A stretch of DNA of 37,311 nucleotides from Thermodesulfovibrio sp. (lineage in GTDB: Bacteria; Nitrospirota; Thermodesulfovibrionia; Thermodesulfovibrionales; UBA6898). The first letter of the stretch is position 1. Every line of letters begins with the position of its first letter. Positions 15,603 through 32,500 of the stretch are shown one piece after another. The notes beneath the pieces were generated by a model. The model did no database searches. It was not told the DNA's origin and was given only the letters and a program-made list of their open reading frames with translations. A program made the position numbers and the translations under genes. Location: assembly GCA_013824615.1 (NCBI GenBank), contig PNOC01000036.1, forward strand, positions 1 through 37,311, in the 5' to 3' direction.

Positions 15603-17402
15603 TTGCATACAGGCAAATACTTTGGTGATTGGTTGCGGCATCTATGGAACGTACTTCCTCCGCAAGATGATCTTCCTCTGCTGAAATATGTCGTCTACCG
15701 GCTCGAAGAATCTGAAGATCTTTCACTGGCAGCAGCTAAGAAAAAGGCCTTGTTCTCTGTCACTGCTGTTTTTATCTCTGTCGCAGTAATATCTCTGGCC
15801 ATACTATTAACCAAGAAATTATTTTTTCCGGACGACATATATTGGATAAATGCTGAACTCCATACCCTTTTCGAGGCCTTTAGTGGTTTGATTTCAATCA
15901 TAATCGGCATGATATTGACCTGGGAATATTCCAGGTCAGGGAAAGTAAATATCCTTTTTCTGGTCTATTCTTTTTTTTCATTTGGCATTCTCAGTTTTTT
16001 TCATGCTTTCTCGAATTATTCTCACAATCTGGTCGTCTGGTTTCATTCATTAAGCGCCCTGCTGAGTTCCTTATTCTTACTTGTTTCAATATTAGTGCAT
16101 CGAACCGATGAAGCCTATCCTGTCCAGTTAATATGGGTAAGAAGATTCTCGGTTTTTTCCGCAACCTTTTTGATCCTTGTCTTGGCAGTTTTGTCCCATG
16201 CATTTTATACATATATTCCCGACGTTCTCTCCGTATCTTTTCAACACCATACCCATGTTTCCATGGCAAAAGGCCAATTCAGCATATATATATATGGCAT
16301 TAATCATATTTCCGCCTTGATTTATTTTATTGCGGGTATCCTGTTTATCAGGGGGTTTTTGAGAACCTATGATATTATTTATCTGATTTTTGGGACCTCG
16401 GCGCTGCTCTTTTTCATCAGTGAGCTTTTTTTCGGTTTGTCGAATTTATGGAATCCCCTGTGGTGGTATTGGCATATCATAAAAGCACTCATATTTGCAG
16501 GTCTTATCTCAGGTCTTGCCTACGGTTTCACGAGGAGCTTCTACCGGCTCAATACGTCCAGGATCCAGATGGCAACTCTGCTCGAGAACATCGGGAAGAA
16601 GAATATAGAAATTGAGAAGGCGTATGTAACCTTAAAAGAGACCCAGAAATACCTTAACGAATCCGAGAAACTTGCCTCTATCGGCAAAATGGCTGCTATG
16701 ATGGCCCACGAAATAAGGAACCCGCTCGGCGCAATCTCAAATTCAGTTGGTGTTCTAAAGAAATATAGTTTGCGTCCGGACGAAACCAGTGAACTCCTTA
16801 CCCTGGTAGAAGATGAGATGGAGAGATTAAATAAATTAACAGAAGATTTTCTGAGTTTTGCCAAACCTTCACGTCTCAGAAGAGATAAAACAGACCTGAA
16901 CACGGTCCTTGACGAAACGCTCTTTTTTTTGAACACTGAAAAGATACAATCCTCCGGTATCACCTTTCAAAAGCTGTTCGCTCCTGATATCCCGCTGCTC
17001 ATGCTGGACAGAAATCATATGAAGCAGGTTTTTATCAACATCCTGATGAATTCCATACAGGCGATGCCTGAGGGCGGAGTGATAGCGATTCAGACAATAT
17101 ACAGAAACAAAGAAGATGAGGTTCAGATTACTTTTGCTGATACGGGGATAGGAATGACCGAGGATGAACTTTCGCTGGTATTTCAACCTTTTTATACGAC
17201 AAAGGATAAGGGCTTGGGGTTGGGGTTCAATATTATTCATAAGATTGTTAAAGAACATGGAGGATACCTTCTTCTGTCGAGCAAAAAAAATGAAGGCACT
17301 GAAATAACGTTGAGCTTTACCGTACCCCCTAAATCTGCCGACCTGGATACGCAAAATGACGTTATTGCACCATCTGGCTATCGTAATGGACGACTAGAAT
17401 GA
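15603..17402 (+). CDS. Membrane histidine kinase, NtrB-type output, MASE3-like sensor
   Basis: 599-residue sensor kinase. Residues ~50-310 contain seven to eight hydrophobic helices. The segments HTLFEAFSGLISIIIGM and ILSFFHAFS resemble the MASE3 integral-membrane sensory domain. A short coiled coil leads to HisKA with phospho-acceptor His369 in MMAHEIRNPLGAISNS, typical of kinases that pair with NtrC regulators. The HATPase domain has NSIQAMPEGG, DTGIGM and KGLGLGF motifs. The TTG start is chosen because AGGGA lies seven bases upstream; the frame stays open upstream to 15495 but has no better start codon. Its TGA overlaps the ATG of the regulator (ATGA), so the two are translationally coupled. 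The signal is unknown. Confidence 0.88.
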   Translation: MHTGKYFGDWLRHLWNVLPPQDDLPLLKYVVYRLEESEDLSLAAAKKKALFSVTAVFISVAVISLAILLTKKLFFPDDIYWINAELHTLFEAFSGLISIIIGMILTWEYSRSGKVNILFLVYSFFSFGILSFFHAFSNYSHNLVVWFHSLSALLSSLFLLVSILVHRTDEAYPVQLIWVRRFSVFSATFLILVLAVLSHAFYTYIPDVLSVSFQHHTHVSMAKGQFSIYIYGINHISALIYFIAGILFIRGFLRTYDIIYLIFGTSALLFFISELFFGLSNLWNPLWWYWHIIKALIFAGLISGLAYGFTRSFYRLNTSRIQMATLLENIGKKNIEIEKAYVTLKETQKYLNESEKLASIGKMAAMMAHEIRNPLGAISNSVGVLKKYSLRPDETSELLTLVEDEMERLNKLTEDFLSFAKPSRLRRDKTDLNTVLDETLFFLNTEKIQSSGITFQKLFAPDIPLLMLDRNHMKQVFINILMNSIQAMPEGGVIAIQTIYRNKEDEVQITFADTGIGMTEDELSLVFQPFYTTKDKGLGLGFNIIHKIVKEHGGYLLLSSKKNEGTEITLSFTVPPKSADLDTQNDVIAPSGYRNGRLE

Positions 17403-18757
17403 TGAAGATACTCGTTATCGATGACCAGATAGGAATGAGAAAAAGCCTCGGTATATTATTGAGGAAGGAGGGTTTTTCAACTGACGAGGCCGAGAACGGG
17501 ACGCAAGCCATTTCATATCTTGAAAAAGGTTTTTACGATCTTGTCATTACAGATATGAAGATGTCTCCGGGGACAGGACTGGACGTTCTTTACTATATAA
17601 AAGAGCGGCTCCCCAAAACCGACGTTATAATCATGACCGGATACGGTACGGTAGACTCTGCCGTACTGGCCATGAAGATGGGAGCTTTCGATTACATTTC
17701 GAAACCGTTCAAAAACGAGGAAATACTGCACAGAGTCAGAAAATCAATGAATCATCTGGAAACAGCAAAAGAGCTGTCTTCATTGCAGAAGGCAGTAACA
17801 TCCGAAAACAACAAAATCCCCCTTTTAGGTACCAGTGCCGCTATCAAAGAGATCGTGGCCGTCATGCATAAGATTTCGAATCTGGATATAGCGATATTGA
17901 TTACGGGAGAGACCGGGACCGGGAAGAGTCTTATCGCAAAGACAATCCACAGCCTCAGCTCTAGAGCCGACAAGCCCTTTGTCTCGATTAACTGCGCTTC
18001 TGTTCCCGAACAGCTGCTCGAAAGTGAGCTTTTCGGGCATGAAAAGGGCGCCTTTACCGGGGCACTCCTCGAAAGGAGGGGACTATTCGAGGCGGCAGAG
18101 GGAGGGACAATACTGCTCGATGAAATAGGCAGTATGCCTTTTGCGATGCAGGCGAAATTACTGGACGTTCTTCAGGACCGGGCGGTCCGGAGGATTGGCA
18201 GTAATAAGAGTAAAGCAATACATGCAAGAGTTATTGCCGCCACGAATACAGACCTTGTCAGCGCAATTGATAACGGCTCCTTTCGCAGCGACCTGTATTA
18301 TCGGATAAAGGTAGCCCATATCCATGTCCCGCCACTGCGGAACCATGCCGAAGATATACCTTTTCTTGCAGAGCATTTTCTGGAATCAACAAGAAAAGAT
18401 ATGGACAACACCGGTGTTCATTTCTCTCCGGAGGCCCTCGACTTCCTGCAGCAGTATAAATTCCCGGGGAATGTGAGAGAGCTCGCCAATGCAATCTCCG
18501 GCGTTGCAGCCGTTGCAGCAGGCAATATTATTTCGGCCCAGGATTTGGCACTCACGCTCACGAGCAGTCTTTTTGAAATTCACTCCCCGGTCCCTGCAGA
18601 TAAAGAGACGCAGCCCAACAGTCTCGATGAATGGGAAAAGGAACTAATCGTTGAAAGCCTCAGGAAAAATCCGGGCAATCTCACCAAGGTATGCAGTGAG
18701 TTGAAAATCGGCAGGACAACGCTCTGGAGAAAAATGAAGAAATATAATATTCAATAA
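17399..18757 (+). CDS. NtrC-family sigma54-dependent response regulator
   Basis: 452-residue enhancer-binding protein of full domain order. The receiver domain has phospho-acceptor Asp52 in VITDMKMSPGTG. The AAA+ domain has Walker A GETGTGKS (from Gly170), the sigma54-contact loop GAFTGA at 217-222 and Walker B LLDEIGS. The C-terminal Fis-type helix-turn-helix is NLTKVCSELKIGRTTLWRKM. It should activate sigma54 promoters after phosphorylation by the coupled kinase. It converges, with a 20-base gap, on the end of the copper-enzyme operon, whose divergent promoter region carries two sigma54 promoters and paired enhancer-like sites. It is the only sigma54 activator in the window and thus the best candidate regulator of that operon (inference). 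Confidence 0.95.
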   Translation: MMKILVIDDQIGMRKSLGILLRKEGFSTDEAENGTQAISYLEKGFYDLVITDMKMSPGTGLDVLYYIKERLPKTDVIIMTGYGTVDSAVLAMKMGAFDYISKPFKNEEILHRVRKSMNHLETAKELSSLQKAVTSENNKIPLLGTSAAIKEIVAVMHKISNLDIAILITGETGTGKSLIAKTIHSLSSRADKPFVSINCASVPEQLLESELFGHEKGAFTGALLERRGLFEAAEGGTILLDEIGSMPFAMQAKLLDVLQDRAVRRIGSNKSKAIHARVIAATNTDLVSAIDNGSFRSDLYYRIKVAHIHVPPLRNHAEDIPFLAEHFLESTRKDMDNTGVHFSPEALDFLQQYKFPGNVRELANAISGVAAVAAGNIISAQDLALTLTSSLFEIHSPVPADKETQPNSLDEWEKELIVESLRKNPGNLTKVCSELKIGRTTLWRKMKKYNIQ

Positions 18758-19129: not shown

Positions 19130-20590
19130 TTAAAACATGAACTGTATACCTGCGTTGAGGAACCATGTGGTTTTCAATTGCAGACCGTTCAGGTTCTGGT
19201 AGATTGGCACGCCGCCTTCAACCCCAATGCTGAAGGCGCCTTTCTGATAGCTCACACCGATCGCGCCATCGAGGCGCCGACCGCCATAGTTGAGGGGGTC
19301 AGCGTCAGGAGTAGGCACCCCCATCCCCGTTACGGGATGTATGAGCTTCTCAATCTCAGAGTCTTTGCCCTTTATCCGTGACGCATCAGTATAGGCAAAA
19401 CGCATCCAGGAGGCGGCACGGCTGAAGGTTCTCTGGATCCAGCTGTTCGCCTTTAAACTGTCACCAAAACTCCAGCCGTTCTTGTTTTTTGCAGTGTGCC
19501 ATGTGTACATGGCCTGCGCGCCCCAGTTCCATTTTGCGTCGTTGCTGAGAACGTTATAGGTAAGAGCAGGTTTGAGGTCATATGAGCCCGAACCAAGTTG
19601 CATGTCATAGGGTGCGCGGTATTCCTTCCGCATCATAGTTATTGTCTCACGTACACTACCGGTAGGAAGGCTGAGCCCAAGACTTCCTGTAAAATACTTG
19701 TTGATCTTGCATATCCCTCTCAGCTCAATGTCGCCGAACCCTCTGGTAGTCATGGGGTCCTCTTGCACAATTGGTTTCATCGGGCCCATGTCCATCAGCA
19801 TGTTCATCTTGTTAGATTGATAATTGGCCATGGTCATTATTGTCAGCTGATCGGTAATCCCATACATCAGCATCAGCATATGCATATCCATTGTCATACT
19901 GGTCGGAATCATCATATAGGAATACTGCGTGGGCCTATTGAACCCGACACTGCTTTTGTCGACATTTTTCGTACCGTCGCGCAGCCCCCTCATGTTCACG
20001 TGCATGAATTTGTAATTGACCATCCACATGCCGGCCGGGTGAGTATGGTAGATATCGTCACCAAATGCGGGATTGAACAACATTTGAGAACCCGCCCCCA
20101 TATTGTGACCAGCATGTCCATGCCCCTCGTGGGTGGTCTTCGTGCCCTCAACTGTTTCCCCGTTAGCAGCCCGCATGGCCTCATCGAATTTTATCACAGT
20201 CCCGCCGTTTTCCTTAACAAATGACTGAGCGTCCTTCTCTGCAGCAAAGGCCCATTTTGCAACAGAGGTCATAACGCCATCTTTTCTTCCTCCGTTTACC
20301 CAGATTGCGGTCCGGGCATCAATCAGGTCTCTTGTCGTATAATCAGCAACCAATAGGGACTTGATCGGCTTGCCCTCGTTTTGTTTCAGCTCAGAGGAAG
20401 CACAGTGGAGACTGCAGACCGCTACCGTTGTCCCGTCGTCATAAAGAATAAGCATCCGGCCTTGGGCAAAAACAGTTCGGTCCATCCCGCATTGTTTGCA
20501 GGCCTTGTAATTATCAACCGTGTCAGCTGAGGTTGCGGTTGCAATGACAGACAGCATAAGTATCAACAACAATAAAGTAAATCTTTTCAT
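19130..20590 (-). CDS. NosL copper-chaperone domain fused to an outer-membrane beta-barrel
   Basis: 486-residue exported protein with a signal peptide (~1-22). Residues ~28-142 form a NosL-type domain: CKQCGM (Cys31, Cys34, Met36), a second cluster Cys59-Ser-Leu-His62-Cys63, Met107 in GVMTSVAKWAFA, then the final GGTVIKFDEAM strand. NosL binds Cu(I) and delivers it to the copper centre of N2O reductase. A His/Gly linker (THEGHGHAGHNMG) follows, and residues ~170-486 are a Met-rich beta-barrel of the outer-membrane transporter-like kind, ending in an aromatic Phe as barrel proteins do. The fusion is unusual: NosL is normally a free lipoprotein. In this operon it probably handles copper for the Tat-exported propeller enzyme. 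The ribosome site AAGGAG is 7 bases upstream. Confidence 0.85.
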   Translation of the reverse strand: MKRFTLLLLILMLSVIATATSADTVDNYKACKQCGMDRTVFAQGRMLILYDDGTTVAVCSLHCASSELKQNEGKPIKSLLVADYTTRDLIDARTAIWVNGGRKDGVMTSVAKWAFAAEKDAQSFVKENGGTVIKFDEAMRAANGETVEGTKTTHEGHGHAGHNMGAGSQMLFNPAFGDDIYHTHPAGMWMVNYKFMHVNMRGLRDGTKNVDKSSVGFNRPTQYSYMMIPTSMTMDMHMLMLMYGITDQLTIMTMANYQSNKMNMLMDMGPMKPIVQEDPMTTRGFGDIELRGICKINKYFTGSLGLSLPTGSVRETITMMRKEYRAPYDMQLGSGSYDLKPALTYNVLSNDAKWNWGAQAMYTWHTAKNKNGWSFGDSLKANSWIQRTFSRAASWMRFAYTDASRIKGKDSEIEKLIHPVTGMGVPTPDADPLNYGGRRLDGAIGVSYQKGAFSIGVEGGVPIYQNLNGLQLKTTWFLNAGIQFMF

Positions 20591-20685: not shown

Positions 20686-21219
20686 TCACATCCCCTCCCT
20701 GAGGACCCAGGTGTCCGTATTGGGTGTTATCCAGTATAAACTCTCACCGGAATTGCTGCGAAGGCCGGTCTCGGTTCTCAGGAGGAAGCGTACCAGATAC
20801 CTGATCATCATATTAATATCTCCTTCACTGGTAACATACAATGCCGGGATGTTAAGGGGTATGTTCACCATATATTCCACGTTCCGCCCCTCCCGGGGGA
20901 GTAGCACGGTGCCTTCCCCGCCTCCATGGTGGGAAGCGCTCAGTTCCTGCCATTTGCCGAGAATATCTGTCTGAACATAAAAAGTCTCGTTGTTTTCTTT
21001 CAATACTATGGTATTGTTTGACCGGTTATATATAGTGAGGTCTACTCTATAATTGTTATTGCCCTGATAAGAGATCTTCCTTACGCTGACGTCAATATAC
21101 TCAAAAGAGGCATTCGCTGCAAAACAATCACCGGCAGCTATATTCCCGAGTACGAGAGCAGCAAACCAACTCCATCGGGTAAGGACGTGAAGCCGGGCTA
21201 TCCATGCAGGGAATTTCAC
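20686..21219 (-). CDS. Exported beta-rich protein, distant relative of the two anchored operon proteins
   Basis: 177-residue protein with a signal peptide (hydrophobic WFAALVLGNIAAG, cleavage near CFA-AN). The mature part is all-beta in style, with alternating stretches such as YRVDLTIYNRSNNTIVL and YVQTDILGKWQEL. Its order of features (strand pair, xVQT..W.E strand, basic/acidic loop, a VNIPL strand, an IRYLVRF strand) parallels the proteins at 21733-22377 and 22466-23161, so I read it as a third, divergent member lacking their membrane anchor. The start is GTG with a weak ribosome site. No function known; its place suggests enzyme assembly or copper handling. Confidence 0.75.
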   Translation of the reverse strand: MKFPAWIARLHVLTRWSWFAALVLGNIAAGDCFAANASFEYIDVSVRKISYQGNNNYRVDLTIYNRSNNTIVLKENNETFYVQTDILGKWQELSASHHGGGEGTVLLPREGRNVEYMVNIPLNIPALYVTSEGDINMMIRYLVRFLLRTETGLRSNSGESLYWITPNTDTWVLREGM

Positions 21220-21304: not shown

Positions 21305-21718
21305 TCACTTGACATTAACATTAAACACCGCGGTGTCCTCACCCTTTTTCCCTTTATTTATCCTGACATATATCTCCCATAGTCCGGACATACTGAGGTT
21401 GAGCTGTTCAACTGCATATTCCCCGTTGCCAAGCTCCTTTATGACCGGTAGTGTACTTGTCCCATGCTCATGTGCCGGCATCCAGGTGACTATCTCAATA
21501 TCCAGTTTCTGCTTTAAGGGTGTCTTTGATTTGCGGTCCCCAATGAAGAGTTTAAGGCTGTTGTTTCCAATCTTTGCCGGAGCGCCCTTAAAATCGATCG
21601 AGACAAAATACAACCCCTGTTCCGTTGTATTTTGCTGCACGGCAAAGCCGAACAGAAAGCAACTCAGAAGCATGATGAGTCCCAGGGAAAGCCTTCGTTT
21701 CACGGTATATGTATTCAT
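21305..21718 (-). CDS. YtkA/FixH-like exported protein
   Basis: 137-residue protein with a signal peptide (~1-27) and a single immunoglobulin-like domain. The motifs VTWMPAHEHGTSTLPVIKEL and LNLSMSGLWEIYVRI are characteristic of the YtkA-like domain; its conserved HxHG and Met resemble metal-binding sites seen in periplasmic copper proteins, though binding is not shown. The ribosome site AGGAGG sits 7 bases before the ATG. It lies 14 bases after the second anchored paralogue, clearly in the same operon. Confidence 0.82.
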   Translation of the reverse strand: MNTYTVKRRLSLGLIMLLSCFLFGFAVQQNTTEQGLYFVSIDFKGAPAKIGNNSLKLFIGDRKSKTPLKQKLDIEIVTWMPAHEHGTSTLPVIKELGNGEYAVEQLNLSMSGLWEIYVRINKGKKGEDTAVFNVNVK

Positions 21719-21732
21719 GAGATATCCTCCTG

Positions 21733-22377
21733 TTAGTGGGGTGGCATTGGAATCATGGTGGGAACCTTGTTGTCCGGAAAGCTCACCTGTTTCAGAACTT
21801 CCTTATCACTCATGTAGTATGGCTTGAGATACATATATACATCATTGACCCTCTCGATCACCTCCTCTTCCTTGAAAGCGCTCTGGGGCAGTACGAACAT
21901 CGAAATGTGATATCGCACATGCATATACCCGTACATTTGATAGAACGTGTGTTTGATTTCACGTTTTATGGTAACTATCTTTCTATAGAAGTGTTCTCCT
22001 TTCTCGAGTTTGGCGACCTGTTCACGCTTCTCTGTCTGCTTGTCATGAATCGGCACCTCTGTCCAGTACGTCCCGGTTTGAACATAGGCGGTCACCTCGG
22101 GATAGGTGGCATACACCGGCTCATCGGCAAGATTCTCGATCTTGAGCACTGCCTCGTACTTTTCCGGAGAGCCGGGTATATCCCAGGCGTCCGACACATC
22201 CGGAAAAACCATCTGGAATGCCAGTTTTTCGAGCCGCTGTTTTTTGGCGTTCCTCTCCCTGATGATAGCATCCTGTTTCTGACCTATAATGAAATCAGCA
22301 AGGAAAAAAATCCCAACGATAGCCAGAACCACGGCAATTGGCTTCTTTATTCTCATTATGCCTGAAAAAAAGTTCAC
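21733..22377 (-). CDS. Membrane-anchored periplasmic protein, paralogue 2
   Basis: 214 residues: an N-terminal transmembrane anchor (~14-30), a short basic helix (QKQDAIIRERNAKKQRLEKL), then a ~160-residue beta-rich periplasmic domain. It matches its upstream neighbour at many positions: QxAIIxxRxAK after the anchor, ADEPVYxxYPEV, WxEVPI, EKxEQxxKL, YMHxxxxIxxxVLP, and YxYLKPxxxxxKE. This is a tandem duplication. The GTG start has GAGGA 8 bases upstream. No family name is known to me. Two such proteins beside two ABC ATPases suggest a periplasmic adaptor or substrate-handling role (inference). Confidence 0.78.
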   Translation of the reverse strand: MNFFSGIMRIKKPIAVVLAIVGIFFLADFIIGQKQDAIIRERNAKKQRLEKLAFQMVFPDVSDAWDIPGSPEKYEAVLKIENLADEPVYATYPEVTAYVQTGTYWTEVPIHDKQTEKREQVAKLEKGEHFYRKIVTIKREIKHTFYQMYGYMHVRYHISMFVLPQSAFKEEEVIERVNDVYMYLKPYYMSDKEVLKQVSFPDNKVPTMIPMPPH

Positions 22378-22465: not shown

Positions 22466-23161
22466 TCACTTGTTCCAATTTCTGAAACCGGTAATGGGCA
22501 TATACACCGGCACCTTGGTTTCACCAAAGTCAATCACCGCCGAGATCTCCTTCTCGGTTATCCAGAAAGGCTTGAGGTAAATATAGGTTTCGCTCTTTCT
22601 TTCGACGACCTCCCCTTCCTTGAAGCCGCTCTCCGGCAGCACGGAAAACCTGATAAGAAACTTGATATGCATATATTTAGGGATAAGATAGCGGTTGTAC
22701 GGTGTCTTTGGATCTATCGTCAGTATTCTCTGGAAGGGATGCGTTCCGCTGGGGAGCTTATACATCTGTTCTTTCTTTTCTGCCCTCCCGTGAGCGATAG
22801 GGACCTCCATCCAGGAGATGGTGCCGACCTGCATAAAGGCCCTCACCTCGGGATAGCTTATATACACCGGTTCATCAGCAACGTTGTCTATTCTGATCGT
22901 CACCGCGTACTGCCAGTTCTGTTTTATATCCCCGGTCTCCTCGATATCGCGGACATCAACCGACACCATGCGAAAGGCCTGTGTTTCGAGCGCTTTAATC
23001 TTTGCTTCTCTGTCTTTTATAATGGCTTCCTGTCGTGCGCCCACCACGTAATCAATCGCCGCCCCAATAAGTATAAGCACCAGCAATACGGCCAGGGCCT
23101 TCCGGCTTTTGAGGAGGGACAGTATCTTTCCTATATAAGAAGGGCTCATCGCAGGGTCCAT
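22466..23161 (-). CDS. Membrane-anchored periplasmic protein, paralogue 1
   Basis: 231 residues with a transmembrane anchor (~20-42), a charged helix and a ~170-residue periplasmic beta-rich domain. It aligns along its full length with the next gene (shared DEPVYISYPEV/DEPVYATYPEV, SGFKEGEVVER/SAFKEEEVIER and YLKPFWITEKE/YLKPYYMSDKE). It begins 3 bases after the stop of the ABC ATPase gene, without its own strong ribosome site, so translation is probably coupled. Function unknown; see paralogue 2. Confidence 0.78.
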   Translation of the reverse strand: MDPAMSPSYIGKILSLLKSRKALAVLLVLILIGAAIDYVVGARQEAIIKDREAKIKALETQAFRMVSVDVRDIEETGDIKQNWQYAVTIRIDNVADEPVYISYPEVRAFMQVGTISWMEVPIAHGRAEKKEQMYKLPSGTHPFQRILTIDPKTPYNRYLIPKYMHIKFLIRFSVLPESGFKEGEVVERKSETYIYLKPFWITEKEISAVIDFGETKVPVYMPITGFRNWNK

Positions 23162-23164
23162 GTA

Positions 23165-23893
23165 CTACGCCGCGCAGGGAGTACAGGCCACGACTTCGTC
23201 TTTCAGGAATACGCCGTCTTTCAGATGAATAATTCGGTCTGCCCTGTTCGCGATTTCGAGATCATGTGTGGATATGACGATGGCGATGCCTTTTTCTTTC
23301 GAGAGTTTGCGGAACGTGTCGATCACGAATAACCGGTTGGCACGGTCGAGGTTTGCCGTCGGCTCGTCAGCCAGTATCATTGCAGGATGTGTTATAAGTG
23401 CCCGCGCAATAGCCACCCGCTGTATCTCACCGCCGCTGAGCTGACTGGGCATATGGTATATCCGGTGTCCCAACCCCAGCGACTTGATGATCTCTATCCC
23501 TTCATCCTTTATATTTCCGTTGCGGTTCTTCGGCTTGAAGAAATTAAAGGGCAGCAGGGTATTCTCCAATACATTCAGCATGCGGAGAGGTTTTGCGTCC
23601 TGAAAGATAAAACTGAATTTCTCTCTGCGGAAATGCACAAGATCTTCTTCTGACAACCCGTCTATCCGGATCCCTTCAAGGAGGACCTCTCCCCTGGTCG
23701 GCCGGTCCAGAGAGCCGATGATGTTTAACAACGTTGTCTTGCCGGACCCGCTCGGCCCGACAAGGGCAACCAACTCTCCCTTGTTGATCGATAGGGAGAC
23801 ATGCTCCAATGCAGTCACCTCACCGGAGGCTAAATTAAACGTCTTGTTCACATCCTTCAGCTCTAAGAATGGGGTACCCTTACTCGTGTCCAT
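23165..23893 (-). CDS. LolD/MacB-type ABC transporter ATPase (second set)
   Basis: About 242-residue ABC ATPase with Walker A GPSGSGKTT, Q-loop at FIFQD, signature LSGGE, Walker B MILADEPTANLD and the switch His in VISTHDLE. The family energises FtsX/MacB-type permeases that move lipoproteins or other periplasmic material. I place the start at the ATG at 23893, because GGAGGG lies 7 bases upstream and the permease stop is 2 bases away; an in-frame ATG at 23908 would overlap the permease. The C-terminus ends in a CTPCAA pair of cysteines, unusual for the family. Works with the permease just upstream and probably the one before it. Confidence 0.92.
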   Translation of the reverse strand: MDTSKGTPFLELKDVNKTFNLASGEVTALEHVSLSINKGELVALVGPSGSGKTTLLNIIGSLDRPTRGEVLLEGIRIDGLSEEDLVHFRREKFSFIFQDAKPLRMLNVLENTLLPFNFFKPKNRNGNIKDEGIEIIKSLGLGHRIYHMPSQLSGGEIQRVAIARALITHPAMILADEPTANLDRANRLFVIDTFRKLSKEKGIAIVISTHDLEIANRADRIIHLKDGVFLKDEVVACTPCAA

Positions 23894-23895
23894 AA

Positions 23896-25086
23896 TCAAC
23901 CCTCCCATTGGCTTCTGAAACTGTCTGTGATTTTGATTTTTGATAAGCGGTACGTCGGATAAAAACTCGCGATAAGACTGCAGAATACGCCCACCAGCAG
24001 AGCCACCAGCACATAGAGGATGTTAATTTTTATTCCGGCCCCGAGTTTAAGGAGCAGCGAATCCAGCAGATACGTCATGATAAGGCCGAGCGGATAGCCT
24101 ATCAGGCCGCCCATCAGCCCTATCGACAGATATTCAGAGAGAAATATGGTCAGAAGCTGCGACCGGGACGCCCCGACGGACTTCAGCAGCCCGATTTCCT
24201 TTATCCGGGAATAAAGCACACTTGTCACGATATTAAAGATCGAAAATATACTCACGGCAATAGTGGCCACAACGATCGCCATCAGGAATTTGAGCGATTT
24301 TTTCAGCAGCGCATATTTCATGGTGCTGAATTGCTGTGGCGAAAGGGCCATAATATTCGGAATATTTTTGTTAATCTCCGCAACCGCTGTCTGGAGCATT
24401 TTTTTGTCTTTATCGAGTGATACATTCTGAATGTTGATAACAGACACAAAGCCGCTTTTATTGTAGAGTTTTTGTATCACGGCAAAAGGTGCAAACACCA
24501 TATAATCTTCAGAGGAGTTATAGTTCTGAAGAATCCCGGCAACTTTAAACTCTGACCCGCCAAGGGTAACCGTATCCTGCAACGATACCTTGCGTGAGCT
24601 GGCATACGATCCTCCCAGGACAGCTTCCTGATCGTTTTCCGGCCACCTCCCGCTGGTCAGTTTCCAGGAAGGCTTAGCCTCTAATTCGGTTTTGAAATCA
24701 ATGCCTGCGACGACCGAGCTGACCTTCGCCTTTCCGATGAGCAGATCATCTTCCTGATAGAAGCGCACGACGGTGATGACCTTGTCCTTGGGATTGCGGA
24801 TAGTTTCCCGTACGATCCTTTCAACGTCGGCAATGACGCCCTCCGGAATATATTCCTGCGTATTTACCCCGATCTGGCTGATCTTGTCCACGCGGATATT
24901 CTTGGGCTGGACGATCAGGGTGAACCCAAACTTGGAGGCCAGGGTCGACAGGGAACTGTCTGCATTGTCGAAGGTGAGGAGAATCGTGCTGAGGATGGCG
25001 ACCGGAATGACGATAGCAATCAGCAGATAGAGGCTTTTTCCCTTTCTTCTGAAAATATCCTTTATAGCCAGGACAATAAGTTCCAT
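23896..25086 (-). CDS. FtsX/MacB-type ABC permease (third permease)
   Basis: 396-residue membrane protein: one N-terminal helix (~18-40), a ~220-residue periplasmic MacB-like domain (GRWPENDQEAVLGGSYA motif), then three C-terminal helices with the FtsX coupling region EIGLLKSVGASRSQLLTIF. This is the topology of type VII ABC permeases that act on periplasmic substrates rather than transport across the inner membrane. It resembles the preceding permease (25088-26503) in order and motif. A GGAG site lies 7 bases before the ATG; the gene abuts its neighbours on both sides. Confidence 0.9.
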   Translation of the reverse strand: MELIVLAIKDIFRRKGKSLYLLIAIVIPVAILSTILLTFDNADSSLSTLASKFGFTLIVQPKNIRVDKISQIGVNTQEYIPEGVIADVERIVRETIRNPKDKVITVVRFYQEDDLLIGKAKVSSVVAGIDFKTELEAKPSWKLTSGRWPENDQEAVLGGSYASSRKVSLQDTVTLGGSEFKVAGILQNYNSSEDYMVFAPFAVIQKLYNKSGFVSVINIQNVSLDKDKKMLQTAVAEINKNIPNIMALSPQQFSTMKYALLKKSLKFLMAIVVATIAVSIFSIFNIVTSVLYSRIKEIGLLKSVGASRSQLLTIFLSEYLSIGLMGGLIGYPLGLIMTYLLDSLLLKLGAGIKINILYVLVALLVGVFCSLIASFYPTYRLSKIKITDSFRSQWEG

Positions 25087-25087
25087 A

Positions 25088-26503
25088 TCAGCTCTCCCAT
25101 TGCGTTCTGAAGGTTTCGGTTATTTTAAGTTTCGACAGTTTATACGCCGGATATATAATTGCCACCAGGCTGCAGACGATCCCCAGGGCGAGCGCTCTCC
25201 AGAGAAAAGCAGTGGTTATCAGGATGACGGCGCCTATGTCCAGAAGAGAATTCAGTACGTAAGCCATTCCCAAGCCGAGCACATAGCCGCCGATGCCTGC
25301 TGCCAGGCCGAGGATGAAATGTTCATAAATGAATATTCTGAATAACTGAAATCTGGAGGCGCCTATGGCCTTTAACATGCCTATCTCCCGAATACGCGCA
25401 TACAGAGAGCCGGTGACGATATTGAAGATAGAGAAGATACCGACGGCGATCGTTGAGATAACAACTGCGAGCAAAAATTTATACAACATGCTGAAGAAAT
25501 CAAACTGCACCCCCGCGACATCAAGCTGGGAAACAGCCGTAATACCGGTAACATTTTTATTCAATTCCACCATGGCATCGCCAACCGGGCAGTTGGGACA
25601 CATGGCCCGGACGCTCACCATTGAGACCAGTCCCTCTTTATGAAACAGTCTCTGGGCAGTGCTCATCGGGATGTACACCATATAATCATCGGCTGAGTTC
25701 GTCTCCTCCAGAATCCCCCTGACGGTGAATTCAGTTTTATTGATAGTAAGCTTGTCCCCCAGCTTCAGTCCTTTAGATTTTGCATAGGCCCCCCCCAGAT
25801 ACGCATCATCCCACCCCTTAAGAATCGGCTTCAGCGGTGCCGCCTTGACTTTCTTATCTTGAGCCGCAATAAGTTTACCGCTGGAATCAACGCCATACTC
25901 AGCTTTATCAATCCCGACTTTACCATCGGAGCCTATGGTAAATATTGAAGCAATATTAGTATTGACATCTCTGACATCGGTTTCTGCCGGCCAGTCACCG
26001 CTGGTCAGGTTCCACCAGAACCTGACAAAATACTCTTTCCGTATCTCGATGCCGGTAACGATCACTTCCTGTCCATCCACCTCAGCCTTTTCGAAGAGCC
26101 GGGGCGCCCAGGTGGCAGGTTCCAGGACAATATCCGGAATTCCCGGTGTAGATACCAGGCCACCCTTCTTCTCCCAGCCGGCTTTTATCGCCTTTTCATA
26201 GTTTTTCATGATTTCGGGGACCGCAGCCTCGGGAATATATGAGCCCAGAACTACTTCAGACGTGGTCAATTTATACTCCTGTTTCTGTTCTTCACCACTG
26301 CTGCCTGCGGAGGAGGCCGAAGGCCGCACTGTCAGGGTATGGCCTGTCTTGGCGATAATCTCCATGATCGCCAGATTCGCTGAATTGCTCACAATTGAGA
26401 GGGAGGTGAGGAGGGCGACCGCTATGACGATCGAGGAGGCAATGACCAGATTCTTCTTCGGTCTTCGCAGCAGTTCGAACATGGCGAGTTTCATGATCTT
26501 CAT
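25088..26503 (-). CDS. FtsX/MacB-type ABC permease (second permease)
   Basis: 471-residue type VII permease with an N-terminal helix (~18-40), an enlarged periplasmic domain (~45-345) and three C-terminal helices carrying EIGMLKAIGASRFQLFRIF. The periplasmic part holds the usual SGDWPAETD and LGGAYAKSKGLKLGDKL motifs plus two cysteines in RAMCPNCPVG, a CxxC pair not seen in the other two permeases; it might bind copper or form a disulfide. The ATG overlaps the stop of the upstream ATPase gene by 4 bases. Confidence 0.9.
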   Translation of the reverse strand: MKIMKLAMFELLRRPKKNLVIASSIVIAVALLTSLSIVSNSANLAIMEIIAKTGHTLTVRPSASSAGSSGEEQKQEYKLTTSEVVLGSYIPEAAVPEIMKNYEKAIKAGWEKKGGLVSTPGIPDIVLEPATWAPRLFEKAEVDGQEVIVTGIEIRKEYFVRFWWNLTSGDWPAETDVRDVNTNIASIFTIGSDGKVGIDKAEYGVDSSGKLIAAQDKKVKAAPLKPILKGWDDAYLGGAYAKSKGLKLGDKLTINKTEFTVRGILEETNSADDYMVYIPMSTAQRLFHKEGLVSMVSVRAMCPNCPVGDAMVELNKNVTGITAVSQLDVAGVQFDFFSMLYKFLLAVVISTIAVGIFSIFNIVTGSLYARIREIGMLKAIGASRFQLFRIFIYEHFILGLAAGIGGYVLGLGMAYVLNSLLDIGAVILITTAFLWRALALGIVCSLVAIIYPAYKLSKLKITETFRTQWES

Positions 26504-27234
26504 GATTTGCAGACCCCCTCCATGATTGCCTCAACCGGATCGGCAAGATCTTTAAAAATCAACCCGTCCTTCATGACTATTATTGTCTTCGCTTTTTCGA
26601 GCCAGGTGAGGCTGTGGCTGACAACGATAAGCGTCTTCTGATAGGTCTTGTTTATTTGACAGAATATATCGATAACCTCGCGCTCTGTTCTGATGTCCAG
26701 TTCTCCGGTCGGCTCATCAGCCAGAATGATCTCGGGATCGTTTATGAGCGCCCGGGCTATCGCAACCCTTCTCTGCTCGCCGCCGGAGAGCTCTGAAGGA
26801 AAGGAATTGACCTTTCTCTTCATATCAAGGTCGGTCAATAAGGATATCGCCTTGGACTTAAGGGCCTCGGTGTCTTTTCTCTCTGAATTCGTGCTGAATA
26901 TAGCCGGCATGACAACGTTGTTTAAGACGTTCAGTGTCGGCAATAAACTGAAGGATTGAAACATAAAGCCTATCTTCCTGTTTCTGAAATGTGAGAGCTG
27001 TTTGTCGTTGAGTTTCCAGATATCATTCCCCTCAATCAGGACCGTCCCTTCGGTAGGCCTTGTCAGACCACCGATCGTGCTGACCAGGGTTGTCTTGCCT
27101 GAGCCGGAATGCCCCATAAAAACCACAAAATCGCCCTTGGCTATCTCCAGGTCAACCCCCTTCAGGGCCTCCACCTTCTGGCCGCCTACGTGATAGATCT
27201 TTTTCAAGCCTTTGGTCTCGATGAATTCGCTCAT
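26500..27234 (-). CDS. LolD/MacB-type ABC transporter ATPase (first set)
   Basis: 244-residue ATPase with Walker A GHSGSGKTT, Q-loop FMFQS, signature LSGGEQRR, Walker B IILADEPTGELD and switch His in VVSHSLTWLEKA. The D-loop and switch region differ slightly from the usual HD pair (HS instead of HD). Starts one base after the stop of the first permease and overlaps the next permease by 4 bases, so it belongs to a tightly coupled unit. With two ATPases and three permeases in the operon, two separate transporters or one mixed complex are possible. Confidence 0.92.
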   Translation of the reverse strand: MSEFIETKGLKKIYHVGGQKVEALKGVDLEIAKGDFVVFMGHSGSGKTTLVSTIGGLTRPTEGTVLIEGNDIWKLNDKQLSHFRNRKIGFMFQSFSLLPTLNVLNNVVMPAIFSTNSERKDTEALKSKAISLLTDLDMKRKVNSFPSELSGGEQRRVAIARALINDPEIILADEPTGELDIRTEREVIDIFCQINKTYQKTLIVVSHSLTWLEKAKTIIVMKDGLIFKDLADPVEAIMEGVCKS

Positions 27235-27235
27235 G

Positions 27236-28450
27236 TCATAACCCCTGTTTCATAGTTTCGTGAGGATCGATTCTGACTGCTACAAGAGCAGGATAGGCTG
27301 ACCCGCTGATTCCCATCAGCAACGCCACCAGTATCGCTGCACCGGCCATCTCACCCATAACGCCAAGGGGAGGCAGCATAAAAGGTATATTGAGCAGCCG
27401 GAGATAGAAGACAATCGATCTCTGAAATATCTTCAGCAGACCACCCCCTATGAGCATGCCCAGGAAGCCGCTCATAATGCTGGTCAGCAGGGCCTCGTAG
27501 ATAATGAGCTTGAAGATATCGAGCCTCGTAGCGCCGATGGCTCTGATTATGCCGAGCTCTCTCTTGCGTTCATTGACCACTGCGGAGTAAATAGCATTAA
27601 TCATGAGCACGTTCGAAAGGACCAGGATGATGATCAAGGCTATAATGCCGGAAAAAACGGCAACCGTTGTCTGTCGGGCCGAGGTCGCGATATTTCCTGT
27701 GGTGATGGCCTTGAGTTCCGGATTTTCCTTTAAAATGGAAAAGGTGATAAAGGGTATTTTTGCCCCGACCTCAAGCTGTACCAGGCCGCCGGATATCTTT
27801 CCTTTTAATGAAGCCAGCGGCTTAATCGACTTGTCGGTCTGGGAATAATCCGACATTTCATGGGCCTTGTTGATATTAAAGAAGATCGCATTGTCATACA
27901 ACCCAATCCCTGTTCTTTCGAGCTTTCCCCAGACGGTAAGAGGAATTCCGTAGAACTTCACATTGTCCCCTATCTCCCACGGTGTCATCGCTCCGATAAT
28001 TGCGCCGTCCGCAGGAAAGGCCTTCTCAGCTTTTTTATCGACCCAGGGCATGACCGTAAAATCATCGGCCGGATCGAACCCTATGAGAAAGGAGTTCCCC
28101 AGAACGCAGCATTCCCCGGTTGCGCTGGTGAGAAATATCTGGCCGGACACCCTCTTGACTCCCTTGAGCCCACGTATCTTGCCAAGCACTGCGTTGTCCA
28201 TATAAAAGGCAGACGGCTCACCGGTCAGGAGAGCGGATTTCATATTAACCAGAGAGTCCTTGGGGATGACAAGGAGATCAGCCCCCAGCTTCGAGAGCCC
28301 TTTATCCAGGCTGTGATGGATCCCGGTAATAAGCAGCGAGGATGCGAACAGGGCCCCGATGACGATACTGACACTTATCAGGATTATATAAAACCGCAAG
28401 TGCTTCACCTGCAGATTCTGGTATGCCAATCTGAATAGAGATACGATCAT
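27236..28450 (-). CDS. FtsX-type ABC permease (first permease)
   Basis: 404-residue type VII ABC permease with an N-terminal helix (~20-42), a periplasmic domain with GAIIGAMTPWEIGDNVKFYG, and three C-terminal helices including RELGIIRAIGATRLDIFKLI, the coupling helix that contacts the ATPase. It is the first transporter gene after the propeller enzyme, from which it is separated by 123 bases holding a strong hairpin. Ribosome site GGGAGG is about 11 bases from the ATG. Its periplasmic domain differs most from the other two permeases. Confidence 0.9.
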   Translation of the reverse strand: MIVSLFRLAYQNLQVKHLRFYIILISVSIVIGALFASSLLITGIHHSLDKGLSKLGADLLVIPKDSLVNMKSALLTGEPSAFYMDNAVLGKIRGLKGVKRVSGQIFLTSATGECCVLGNSFLIGFDPADDFTVMPWVDKKAEKAFPADGAIIGAMTPWEIGDNVKFYGIPLTVWGKLERTGIGLYDNAIFFNINKAHEMSDYSQTDKSIKPLASLKGKISGGLVQLEVGAKIPFITFSILKENPELKAITTGNIATSARQTTVAVFSGIIALIIILVLSNVLMINAIYSAVVNERKRELGIIRAIGATRLDIFKLIIYEALLTSIMSGFLGMLIGGGLLKIFQRSIVFYLRLLNIPFMLPPLGVMGEMAGAAILVALLMGISGSAYPALVAVRIDPHETMKQGL

Positions 28451-28525: not shown

Positions 28526-28558
28526 CTCCCCCGTCCCTCAACAACCGGGACGGGGGAG
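28526..28558. terminator. Strong intra-operon hairpin (attenuator or mRNA-stabilising)
   Basis: A perfect 12 bp GC-rich stem, CTCCCCCGTCCC pairing with GGGACGGGGGAG around a 9-base loop, lies between the propeller enzyme gene and the first permease gene. A TTTT follows only on the plus strand; on the minus strand, the direction of transcription, no T-run follows. It may lower or protect the downstream message, making the enzyme more abundant than its assembly genes (inference). Confidence 0.55.
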
Positions 28559-28573
28559 AGTTTTCCTGTATTG

Positions 28574-30115
28574 CTAGGTAGTAGGGCAGCGTGAAATTGC
28601 CAGTCCCTTGATTGAACTGGGGACAATAACATTATCGTGGTGTCCATAGGGACTCGGAAGAAAGCCATACAACTTATCGTCCTTGACCCGTATCATAAAG
28701 GTCCCGGACTTTGTCTTTTGATAGCCGCTATAGACGCTGAATACCCATTTCCCATCATCCGTACACGCCAGGGTATGCACATCAGGGCCGATGTCTATCG
28801 TCTTTGTAATCTTCCAGGTCTTGGTATCAACAACCGCGACGCTGTTCATACTTGGAGAAGGCCACCACAGACTGACATACAGTTTTTTTCCGTCAGGGGT
28901 AAACGCCATATGGAACGGATTGGGATACACACCCCTCCAGCTCGGATCACCCACGCCTGCGATTCTTCGCCAGGTGGTAGGGTCTTTCTGATTGCTGGAG
29001 TCAAAGACGGCCATCTCGTTTTCTCTGGCATTATTCATGAGGACGAAGCGGTCTCCGGTAGGATTAAACCCGGCCTGGTGCGCAGGGGTCGGTACGTTCT
29101 TGAACTTTGCTGTCCATTCACCGTCACCGACCTTGGTTAACGGGACCTGATACCCCTGGTCCTTATGTTTTACAGATCCGACACACACAGCCTTTGGTTC
29201 AAAGGTCGTCGTATCAAAGACAACGCCACAACCGATAACCCTCAGCGCAGCCACCGCATATTTTTTGTTAAACGGGTCCCAGCAGAGGGAATCCAGGGCA
29301 CAGAGGTTCTTCAGACGCGGACCAGGCACCTTCCCCTGCTCGGCAAAGAGTTCGCCTCCGGGGACAAGTTCCCAGTCTATCTTGCAGCCCTTTGTACCTT
29401 TCAGGTCATAGGGAGGCTTCAATTTCTTGATAGTAAGCGTTCCGCCATCAACCCATGCCCGGGCAAGGTCTTTCATATTATTGGGTTCCCAGTCGAACAT
29501 TATGCATGCTTCTACGGTAGACGGCTGGGTGCCTTTACCCCTTTTGAATACGCCGATAATATCTTTCTGTCCGTCAGCCACCGAAAAGCGTTCATTGTCA
29601 GGCGCAACCGTCACATGCACACCAAGACCGATACCAGTCGTTTCAGCAACGTCCTCCAGTATATTCATCTTGGTGCCGTCATAATTTATGCGCCAGATAT
29701 TGAACCCCTCAGCCGGCTCTTTTACCGGGGTTGTGACTCCATAGATAAATAGATTTTTTCCTCCCTGGGAGTCCAGGACGAATTCAAACTCCTTGTAGGG
29801 ATCCGGTGAGGCAAAGGCAGCCAAATGGTGGGTAATCGGAGTTTTATTTCCGGCCCATATGCTCATATTCATCCAGGCCAGGCAATGACCGGTTGACATA
29901 TCATACGCGCCGACTCCGCCGCCGTACTTGCCGGGGACCAGGTGGATATACTTGCCGAACTGCTTGTAGACATCAAAGAGTGTGGGATCGCTAAACATGG
30001 CAGCATCAGCGACGCCTGAAGAACTGATTTTCTCACCAAGACCGAGCTTAGCAAGACCGCCGATTGCGGCTCCGGCAACTGCCCCTTTGAATAAATTGCG
30101 TCTCGAAATAGACAT
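28574..30115 (-). CDS. Tat-exported copper propeller enzyme, thiocyanate dehydrogenase-like (NosZ superfamily)
   Basis: 513-residue protein with a Tat signal (SRRNLFKG, cleavage ~35-40), so it is folded before export to the periplasm. The rest is a seven-bladed beta-propeller of the N2O-reductase superfamily. Candidate copper ligands are His96/His97 (THHLAAF), His167 (LGVHVTV), His346 (PAHQAGF), His402 (PFHMAF), His447 (PDVHTLA) and His492/493 (GHHD). Intervals of 71, 179, 56, 45 and 46 match those I remember for Thioalkalivibrio thiocyanate dehydrogenase, and Glu249 and Asp275 fit its acidic active-site residues. There is no CuA cupredoxin domain, which NosZ always has, so N2O reduction is unlikely. 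The expected reaction is thiocyanate to cyanate and sulfur, but a related substrate cannot be excluded. First gene of the long operon, with a GGGAGG ribosome site and a sigma54 promoter upstream. Confidence 0.8.
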   Translation of the reverse strand: MSISRRNLFKGAVAGAAIGGLAKLGLGEKISSSGVADAAMFSDPTLFDVYKQFGKYIHLVPGKYGGGVGAYDMSTGHCLAWMNMSIWAGNKTPITHHLAAFASPDPYKEFEFVLDSQGGKNLFIYGVTTPVKEPAEGFNIWRINYDGTKMNILEDVAETTGIGLGVHVTVAPDNERFSVADGQKDIIGVFKRGKGTQPSTVEACIMFDWEPNNMKDLARAWVDGGTLTIKKLKPPYDLKGTKGCKIDWELVPGGELFAEQGKVPGPRLKNLCALDSLCWDPFNKKYAVAALRVIGCGVVFDTTTFEPKAVCVGSVKHKDQGYQVPLTKVGDGEWTAKFKNVPTPAHQAGFNPTGDRFVLMNNARENEMAVFDSSNQKDPTTWRRIAGVGDPSWRGVYPNPFHMAFTPDGKKLYVSLWWPSPSMNSVAVVDTKTWKITKTIDIGPDVHTLACTDDGKWVFSVYSGYQKTKSGTFMIRVKDDKLYGFLPSPYGHHDNVIVPSSIKGLAISRCPTT

Positions 30116-30248: not shown

Positions 30249-30264
30249 AGCAATTCGAATGCCA
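30249..30264 (-). promoter_or_regulatory. Sigma54 promoter of the copper-enzyme operon
   Basis: On the minus strand the sequence reads TGGCATTCGAATTGCT, against the consensus TGGCACGNNNNTTGCT: both invariant GG and GC pairs at correct spacing and only two mismatches. Transcription would begin near 30239, giving a leader of ~124 bases before the enzyme gene. The paired enhancer sites are centred ~110 bp upstream. Confidence 0.75.
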
Positions 30265-30324
30265 GGTTGCAAGGCCCCTGTTATCTGGCTTTTACACGCA
30301 CTGTGCACCGTAAAAAGAGCTTAA

Positions 30325-30373
30325 CTTTCCATAATGAAACGTTGGAAGTTTCATTATGTTTCATTATGGAAAG
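30325..30373. promoter_or_regulatory. Paired enhancer (UAS) sites for a sigma54 activator
   Basis: Bases 30325-30340 (CTTTCCATAATGAAAC) and 30358-30373 (GTTTCATTATGGAAAG) are exact reverse complements. Each is itself a dyad TTTC-N6-GAAA, with centres 33 bp apart, about three helical turns, so two dimers would sit on the same face. A partial third copy (GTTTCATTATG) occupies 30348-30358. The block lies between two divergent sigma54 promoters at distances normal for enhancers (~110 and ~190 bp). Confidence 0.75.
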
Positions 30374-30515
30374 TGAGTACCAGCTACGAGCGGTTTGTTT
30401 TGGCAATGAGGTTTATCAATGAAATATTTATGAAATAGCTCGACAGAGGCGTTACCGCGACCCCCGGCGATCTATACAGGTCAGGGCAACACCATGACAG
30501 CATTGCAGAAGCTCC

Positions 30516-30531
30516 TGGCATGAAAATAGCT
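30516..30531 (+). promoter_or_regulatory. Sigma54 promoter of tatA-tatB
   Basis: TGGCATGAAAATAGCT matches the consensus TGGCACGNNNNTTGCT with GG and GC pairs correctly spaced and two mismatches. The expected start at ~30542 leaves ~39 bases before tatA, including its AAGGAGG ribosome site. Confidence 0.7.
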
Positions 30532-30580: not shown

Positions 30581-30775
30581 ATGTTCGGACTAGGGATTCA
30601 GGAATTATTGATTGTCTTGGTGATCGTGATGGTTTTGTTCGGCGCAAAAAGACTGCCGGCGCTTGCAGACGGCGTGGGAAAGGCCATCAGGAATTTCAAA
30701 AAGGCGACTATAGAGGATATTGATAGTACCACTGCGGCTAAAGCAAATTTGGATACCGATAATAAGCGTGCGTGA
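30581..30775 (+). CDS. tatA: Sec-independent translocase protein TatA
   Basis: 64-residue TatA: an N-terminal transmembrane helix (LLIVLVIVMVLF), the FGAKRLP hinge and an amphipathic helix (LADGVGKAIRNFKKA), then a short polar tail. TatA oligomers form the pore-like part of the twin-arginine pathway. An AAGGAGG site lies 6 bases before the ATG. Divergently transcribed from the Tat-substrate enzyme and preceded by its own sigma54 promoter, so it looks like a dedicated, co-regulated copy. No tatC in the window. Confidence 0.93.
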   Translation: MFGLGIQELLIVLVIVMVLFGAKRLPALADGVGKAIRNFKKATIEDIDSTTAAKANLDTDNKRA

Positions 30776-30805: not shown

Positions 30806-31120
30806 ATGTTTGATATCGGCTTTCAGGAATTAGTCATAATTTTTATTGTGGCTCTGTTGGTGATCGGCCCAAAAAAACTTCCTGAGTTCAGCAGAAATCT
30901 CGGGAAATGGATTATGGAGATCAGAAGAGGTATACATATAGCCAAAAGCCGGATAGAGGATGAGATTAATACGATCAAGATTCCTGAAACGACGGCTCAA
31001 GCCTGTCAGGAAGATGATAAAAGTTATGGAGTGATGAGTGAACAGAAAGCTACTGAGGAAAAAACAACCTTGGCTGAAGTTATCGACAACAACGTGCCTG
31101 ATAGTGCCCTGAGTTCCTGA
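30806..31120 (+). CDS. tatB: Sec-independent translocase protein TatB (TatA/B family)
   Basis: 104 residues: a transmembrane helix (ELVIIFIVALLVIG), the PKKLPEFSRNLGKW hinge and amphipathic helix, and a longer charged tail. The longer length, the Glu in the membrane segment and the VIGPKKLPE hinge favour TatB, which with TatC recognises twin-arginine signals, over a second TatA. It starts 30 bases after tatA and shares its promoter. No clear terminator follows, though an imperfect CCGG/CCGG dyad occurs at 31220-31250. Confidence 0.82.
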   Translation: MFDIGFQELVIIFIVALLVIGPKKLPEFSRNLGKWIMEIRRGIHIAKSRIEDEINTIKIPETTAQACQEDDKSYGVMSEQKATEEKTTLAEVIDNNVPDSALSS

Positions 31121-31278: not shown

Positions 31279-32466
31279 ATGATAAGAAAATCACTCTTGA
31301 TGAAGGTATTTGACGCTGCCTATATGCAGCGCTGGAACGATAAAATTCGGCCGGTAGAACTCGCAGAACTCGACAAGCAGGCCCACAAGATGTTCATCGC
31401 CTACTTTCTGGGGAAATTCGATGAAAACAGCCGGGGGTTCAGCTGGACCACCATCATCGAGGGAAGCATCTTCGAGCTTCTGCAGCGACTCGTGATCACC
31501 GACCTCAAGCCTCCCATCTTCTACAAGATAAAGGCCGACAGGGCAAAATACCGGGAACTCAATGCATGGATCTATCAGGAACTGGAACCGGTAATCTCAC
31601 CGCTGGGAGAGGGTTTCTGCATGAGGTTCCGGGATTATTTTGGAGACGAACAGGAGGACCTTAACAGGAGAATTCTGAGCGCAGCCCATCTCTATGCAAC
31701 CAAGTGGGAATTCGGGATCATCGAGCGGATGACGCCAAAAGGTTACGAAATCGCATCCATAAAGAAAAGTCTGGAGCAGAAACAGAAGTTGTACCAGGAC
31801 CTCGAGGGAATGGTCCAGTTGCGCAAGAACAGAAAATACCAGGATTTCATCGACCTCTGCGGCCAGCTGCGTTTCCAGTCACGCTGGGCAAACCTCTACA
31901 GGATACCGCGGACCTCGGTAATCGGGCACTCTTTCTTTGTGGCCTTTCTGAGTTATCTGTTTTCTCTTGAAATCAAGGCCTGCGACAAGCGGTGCTTCAA
32001 TAACTACTTTACCGGCCTGTTTCACGACCTGCCGGAGGTACTGACCAGGGACATCATCTCGCCCGTAAAAAGGTCTGTCGAAGGGCTGGAAATGCTCATA
32101 AAAGAATATGAAAAAGAGCAGATGGAAAAAGAGATCTACCGCCTCATCCCAAAGGCCTGGCATGGAGAAGTGCGGACCTTTACTGAGAATGAATTTGACA
32201 GCATCGTCTGTGTCAGAAATAAACAGGCCCGGGTCACCAGTGATGAGATTTCAACCCGGTATAACAGGGACATGTATAACCCACGTGATGGAGAACTGGT
32301 AAAGGCCTCGGACAGCCTGGCTGCCTTTATCGAGGCGACTGCCGCATTGCGACATGGCAGCCCGAACCAGGAGTTTCATGAGGCCAGGCTTAATTTCAAA
32401 CAGCGCTATGAGCGGACCACCATCGCCGGCATAAACTTTGGGGAGATTTATGCAGATTTTGAATAA
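31279..32466 (+). CDS. HD-domain hydrolase (YfbR/HD_3-like)
   Basis: 395-residue cytoplasmic protein with a large helical N-terminal region and an HD-type metal-dependent phosphohydrolase domain in the second half. His217 in IGHSFFVAFLSYLF, the His249-Asp250 pair in LFHDLPEVLTRD and a later Asp in KASDSLAAFIEA supply the metal ligands. The layout resembles the HD_3 nucleotidase group. The substrate is unknown. The ATG has only a weak ribosome site. It precedes the DAC-domain gene by 34 bases and is probably cotranscribed with it. Confidence 0.82.
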   Translation: MIRKSLLMKVFDAAYMQRWNDKIRPVELAELDKQAHKMFIAYFLGKFDENSRGFSWTTIIEGSIFELLQRLVITDLKPPIFYKIKADRAKYRELNAWIYQELEPVISPLGEGFCMRFRDYFGDEQEDLNRRILSAAHLYATKWEFGIIERMTPKGYEIASIKKSLEQKQKLYQDLEGMVQLRKNRKYQDFIDLCGQLRFQSRWANLYRIPRTSVIGHSFFVAFLSYLFSLEIKACDKRCFNNYFTGLFHDLPEVLTRDIISPVKRSVEGLEMLIKEYEKEQMEKEIYRLIPKAWHGEVRTFTENEFDSIVCVRNKQARVTSDEISTRYNRDMYNPRDGELVKASDSLAAFIEATAALRHGSPNQEFHEARLNFKQRYERTTIAGINFGEIYADFE

Positions 32467-32500
32467 GCCTGCACAGACTGTAGTAATATAGAGAAACAAT

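Follow-up and report, generated by a model that had tools for sequence, protein, structure and literature searches.

A thiocyanate dehydrogenase homologue and its gene cluster in a genome assigned to the Nitrospirota

We asked whether a reading frame on a DNA stretch of 37,311 nucleotides (hereafter the window, which is one entire contig of a 3.6 Mb, 96-contig host genome) encodes a thiocyanate dehydrogenase (TcDH), as a preliminary description of the sequence had proposed, or another member of the propeller superfamily that includes nitrous oxide reductase (NosZ). The host, a bacterium of groundwater type, appears to belong to the Nitrospirota, order Thermodesulfovibrionales; of the two affiliations that the preliminary description had considered, Nitrospirota and deltaproteobacterial, only the first held. 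The gene, tcdh, is single-copy in the host genome; it is real, and its assignment to the TcDH family is right. We place at about 0.8 the probability that it encodes a periplasmic, Tat-exported TcDH; its operon for thiocyanate oxidation appears complete, and the enzyme is likely to oxidise thiocyanate.

The reading frame is open throughout its 513 codons, and direct reading of the translation gives an N-terminus of MSISRRNLFK, a Tat-type signal that includes SRRNLFK, in agreement with the export signal previously claimed. A phmmer search against all solved structures returned strong matches to TcDHs only (Pelomicrobium methylotrophicum, E 6.6e-172; Thioalkalivibrio paradoxus, E 2.5e-161), with 54-56% identity to the crystallised enzymes across residues 46-513 of the window protein, and the next match was to an archaeal YVTN surface-layer protein (1.9e-15), the best stretch of which covers about 60 residues. 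Neither Pfam nor NCBIfam returned a TcDH match, yielding only weak propeller matches to models of hydrazine synthase beta, L-NosZ and cytochrome D1, and consequently family scans alone overlook this protein. A search of viral contigs found no relative.

In an alignment with T. paradoxus TcDH, all 13 of the active-site residues listed for that enzyme (PMC6504805, Fig. 4) are identical in the window protein (paradoxus/window pairs: K103/K63, H135/H96, H136/H97, Q156/Q117, H206/H167, E288/E249, D314/D275, H381/H346, H437/H402, H482/H447, H528/H493, D529/D494 and R544/R509). The catalytic numbering that the preliminary description had given for T. paradoxus agrees with this list, and the residues it had matched to that numbering (His96, 97, 167, 346, 402, 447 and 493, Glu249 and Asp275) do align one-to-one; the His spacing of 179 residues, as compared to 175 in T. 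paradoxus, results from small indels between H167 and H346. Tyr164 (T. paradoxus numbering), which has been proposed as part of the electron route to cytochrome c552 (PMC9456337), corresponds to Tyr125 in the window protein. An AlphaFold model built with 28 aligned locus proteins reached a pLDDT of 84.8 and a pTM of 0.85 (a single-sequence run reached a pLDDT of only 37.9). When overlaid on TcDH crystal structures, one of the checks that had been suggested for this protein, the model superposes with Z of about 61, TM of about 0.96 by target length and an rmsd of 1.3-1.9 over 458-465 residues, as compared to a Z of 27.9 for the best NosZ row. The protein is a single propeller that continues to approximately residue 500 of 513 and carries no extra C-terminal domain, and no cupredoxin match was obtained from it, such that the claimed lack of a CuA domain stands.

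A tree, the other check suggested, places the window protein beside the TcDHs rather than inside NosZ or the non-copper YVTN propellers. Together with six further Nitrospirota sequences it forms a clade with Tat signals (N1, support 100/100), the sister (89/92) of a group of five Nitrospirota sequences (N2), the readable N-termini of which look Sec-type, without a twin arginine. At 83/87 support, N1 and N2 join the proteobacterial clade, which includes both solved enzymes; neither includes a characterised member, N1 sits on a long clade stem, and the placement of two long rows (L024 and L041; L numbers denote the loci fetched for comparison) is unsure. N1 is set apart from all other TcDH-group sequences by ten fixed differences and possesses several loops of its own. 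Position 169, the site mutated by crystallographers in PDB 8p3l, is occupied by Pro in N1, by Lys in N2 and by Thr in Proteobacteria; Arg predominates there in a TcDH-like group in which the copper ligand His482 is Gln throughout (the H482Q group). Of 396 Nitrospirota genomes sampled, 13 carry TcDH genes, and the four other genomes from the host's genus have none, a patchy distribution; relatives occur in groundwater, deep-subsurface and sediment genomes. The range initially given for the enzyme, haloalkaliphilic Gammaproteobacteria, was itself too narrow, given that Pelomicrobium enzymes have been solved and that Thiohalobacter and Guyparkeria are neutrophilic halophiles (PMC6504805). A record labelled Nitrospira sp. 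(Ru_enrich_NS) contains an N2-clade TcDH with ABC genes, kinase and regulator (L031:9935-11413), and should its binning be correct, a thiocyanate enzyme may occur in a genus of nitrifier type. A further Nitrospirota protein (L024:1501-2832), 32-33% identical, retains the full set of 13 active-site residues, but Tyr164 is replaced by Asp and Phe436 by Met; it lies on a very long branch and may be a different enzyme that shares the fold.

The features of the cluster and its surroundings are summarised in Table 1. Among the accessory genes, hypA is conserved in N1 and in some proteobacterial clusters, and of the loci fetched, only the window and L025 have the NosL-domain protein. The Met/His-rich part of this protein might form an outer-membrane barrel, and the YtkA-like protein is possibly a copper carrier. 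In our proposal, the ABC permease and ATPase genes, hypA, hypB, hypC and the YtkA-like and NosL-domain proteins would act in copper supply or enzyme maturation, and those that are conserved are candidates for a part in the copper-loading step. The hairpin that follows tcdh may be a partial terminator or an mRNA stabiliser, and could raise tcdh over ABC transcript levels, the pattern observed in expression data for T. thiocyanoxidans. Next to the tat genes, positions 31279-33394 encode an HD-domain protein followed by a DacZ-like diadenylate cyclase (DAC domain). In two N2 loci, small ORFs with two CxxCH motifs, candidate dihaem electron acceptors, are located directly upstream of tcdh (L032:8645-8977 and L035:9253-9552).

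Table 1 Features of the tcdh region (window coordinates; L039 is the Tv. thiocyanoxidans ARh2 locus, identities to it by tblastn)
Feature	Position	Strand	Description
Membrane histidine kinase	15603..17402	+	HisKA, HATPase_c, MASE3; assigned with synteny
Sigma-54-dependent response regulator	17399..18757	+	Sigma54_activat, Response_reg, HTH_8, GAFTGA motif; 47% to L039
NosL-domain protein	19130..20590	-	PF05573 E 2.7e-14; Met/His-rich C-terminal part
hypC	20686..21219	-	Secreted protein, weak relative of hypA
YtkA-like secreted protein	21305..21718	-	PF13115 E 7.7e-12
hypB	21733..22377	-	Small, one N-terminal hydrophobic stretch; in nearly all TcDH clusters; 28% to L039
hypA	22466..23161	-	Small, one N-terminal hydrophobic stretch; hypB paralogue
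atp2	23165..23908	-	LolD-like ABC ATPase; 45% to L039
perm3	23896..25086	-	Extra permease, perm2 paralogue, present in N1 loci
perm2	25088..26503	-	FtsX/MacB-type ABC permease; 32% to L039
atp1	26500..27234	-	LolD-like ABC ATPase; PF00005; 45% to L039
perm1	27236..28450	-	FtsX/MacB-type ABC permease; PF02687, PF12704; 42% to L039
G+C-rich hairpin	28526..28558	-	Between tcdh and perm1; 12-bp arms, inverted repeat I3
tcdh	28574..30115	-	TcDH homologue, 513 aa, Tat signal, seven-bladed propeller with predicted tri-copper site
Sigma-54-type promoter	30249..30264	-	TGGCATTCGAATTGCT (GG-N10-GC), 133 bp before the tcdh start codon
Candidate enhancer	30324..30374	.	Two facing GTTTCATTATGGAAA dyads; inverted repeat of 17 perfect bases per arm
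Divergent sigma-54-like site	30516..30531	+	TGGCATGAAAATAGCT, before tatA; conserved in L025 and L027
tatA	30581..30775	+	Twin-arginine translocase subunit, 64 aa, divergent from tcdh; homologues at L025 and L027
tatB/tatA-family translocase subunit	30806..31120	+	104 aa; TIGR01410 60.4 bits, above cut-off

Near-consensus sigma-54 sites occur at a similar distance from tcdh in L025, L026 and L027. A scan of the window for the sigma-54 consensus revealed no enrichment (5 found, 5.1 expected), and the case for the promoter therefore rests on position and conservation. Between the divergent sites of tcdh and tatA sits the element GTTTCA-N3-TGGAAA, within an inverted repeat longer than any other of short range in the 22 kb searched. 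This dyad was first noticed when the window was compared with a Sulfuritalea locus (L036), and was then tested: at up to two mismatches, 35 matches lie in the 400 bp preceding TcDH genes, as compared to an expectation of 0.6 based on the remainder of these loci, and 17 of 18 loci carry it. With the window, L036 and the closest kin set aside, the dyad is present in 12 of 13 loci, for 0.44 matches expected. Nominal p-values for these counts overstate significance, as the loci share descent and some near-palindromes were counted on both strands; yet the spread of the dyad over Nitrospirota, beta- and gammaproteobacteria makes a chance origin of its conservation unlikely. Of ten loci from the H482Q clade, not one has the dyad at up to one mismatch, and two have a single match each at up to two. 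The only other match to the half-site pair pattern in the host genome (C3:41597) appears to lie inside a reading frame or at its end, and we take it as chance. We found no published description of the candidate enhancer. The dyad presumably binds the cluster regulator; it links Nitrospirota, beta- and gammaproteobacterial TcDH operons to one kind of regulator, sets the H482Q relatives apart, and provides a sequence-only marker of likely thiocyanate-responsive loci.

Targeted searches of the host genome, together with a few small regions, revealed genes for a cbb3-type oxidase (CcoN, a haem-binding partner and a CcoG-like gene), an aa3-type oxidase (COX1, COX3 and COX2 with a CuA motif) and an SCO-like gene, identified with PF00115 and by reading translations, in addition to dsrA, dsrB, dsrC and dsrMK-like genes. 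Cyanase is absent from the genome in a search with a positive control, and is likewise absent from Thioalkalivibrio (PMC6504805). Searches for FCSD and for the nitrile-hydratase/thiocyanate-hydrolase alpha subunit returned no match, with controls that were likewise empty. Given the oxidase and dsr genes, and the absence of cyanase as in Thioalkalivibrio, a route from thiocyanate to cyanate and S0, with electrons passing via cytochrome c to O2, is possible in the host. Under the mechanism we propose, coppers at the propeller centre would catalyse SCN- + H2O -> OCN- + S0 + 2H+ + 2e-, and a c-type cytochrome would deliver the electrons to the cbb3- or the aa3-type oxidase. When thiocyanate is present, the kinase and sigma-54 regulator would bind the paired dyads between tcdh and tatA, and both divergent promoters would be switched on.

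The reading as TcDH is favoured by the match to a solved TcDH, the full set of active-site residues together with Tyr164, the Z 61 overlay (rmsd about 1.4), a gene order as in the thiocyanate-induced cluster of Tv. thiocyanoxidans, the common dyad and the host oxidases. It is weakened by the moderate level of identity to the solved enzymes, the long stem, the loops, Pro169 and ten fixed differences of N1, by the genes for FccAB, CopCD and a cytochrome not being seen in the window, and by the lack of cyanase in the genome. We give almost no credence to the window protein being a NosZ relative or an ordinary non-catalytic YVTN propeller. It does belong to the same superfamily, weakly matches the three models named above (the L-NosZ model at 16.8 bits, for a cut-off of 700), and has a NosL domain in its cluster, but the solved TcDHs match it over their full length at E below 1e-159, no NosZ chain matches in phmmer at E up to 1, and its fold is far closer to TcDH than to NosZ. 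Indeed, phmmer, the active-site alignment, the tree and the structural overlay all refute this alternative, as the preliminary description had anticipated in preferring a TcDH-like copper propeller. Improbable, though considerably less so, is that N1 comprises tri-copper oxidoreductases of the TcDH fold that have kept the copper site and operon, and shifted their main substrate to other small sulfur or nitrogen species. Such a shift would suit a well-separated clade with no characterised member, its fixed substitutions and loops, and the variation at position 169; however, the metal-site and cavity residues are all retained, and N1 has its accessory genes, regulator and dyad in common with thiocyanate oxidisers.

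A different alternative concerns physiological role only, and is compatible with TcDH identity: the enzyme may serve in thiocyanate detoxification or in acquiring sulfur or nitrogen, rather than in energy conservation. The patchy distribution of the gene among Nitrospirota and congeners is consistent with this role, as is the absence of fccAB from the cluster and of cyanase from the host. However, by means of its terminal oxidases and dsrABC/MK-like genes the host could use the electrons and S0 for energy conservation, and the regulatory element is the same as in lithotrophs. We regard this role as rather unlikely, while giving it more weight than a change of substrate.

Returning to the TcDH reading, the window protein is a taxonomically distant member of the family, and would place a pathway so far studied in a few Proteobacteria in a phylum that is very distant from them and mostly uncultured. 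Our search of the open-access literature turned up no clear account of a Nitrospirota TcDH. An apparently complete Nitrospirota operon, with relatives from groundwater, the deep subsurface and sediment, suggests a wider distribution for the cyanate pathway of thiocyanate oxidation than that literature describes. More tentatively, and at somewhat below even odds, N1 may represent a lineage of subsurface Nitrospirota that gains energy by oxidising thiocyanate (or a shifted sulfur-nitrogen substrate). Its TcDH would have a copper-loading set of its own (perm3, the YtkA-like protein and the NosL-domain protein) and be switched on via a sigma-54 enhancer code in common with Proteobacteria. In that case, operons that respond to thiocyanate could be sought in metagenomes by means of the enhancer.

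Among known systems, NosZ shares the propeller fold with the window protein (Z of about 28), which differs in having no CuA domain. The H482Q group, found in Melainabacteria/Obscuribacterales, Planctomycetota and one Nitrospirota genome (L041-L050), with a Methylocella tundrae plasmid gene (L068:7539-9383) of the same residue pattern, is 40-46% identical to the window protein; perm1/atp1 and a hypB-like gene mostly follow, and most of its loci keep most or all of a smaller ABC set. Its members are possibly a different copper enzyme; the same His482Gln exchange has been made by crystallographers in two TcDHs (6sji, 8yu5/8yu6). Closer are the TcDH of T. paradoxus (5f75), at 54% identity, and that of Pelomicrobium methylotrophicum (8q9x, 8q9y, 8z75), which at 56% identity has the same active-site residues and fold, whereas the window protein comes from another phylum, and has N1-specific loops and a Thr-to-Pro change at position 169. 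At the level of the cluster, the preliminary description had seen a different set of neighbours, a view that did not survive comparison. By tblastn, the order in Tv. thiocyanoxidans ARh2 is TcDH, perm1, atp1, perm2, atp2, hypB, histidine kinase and response regulator, and this cluster is induced by thiocyanate, with TcDH changing most (logFC 7.5; PMC5744179). The tcdh cluster of Thioalkalivibrio also includes tatA, copCD and fccAB (Berben et al., PMC5328954). No fccAB, copCD or c-type cytochrome gene was seen among the window ORFs, but the ABC pairs, the small anchored proteins such as hypB, the kinase and sigma-54 regulator, and tatA are all homologous between the two clusters and mostly in the same order, to which the window adds perm3, hypA and hypC relatives, the YtkA-like protein and the NosL-domain protein.
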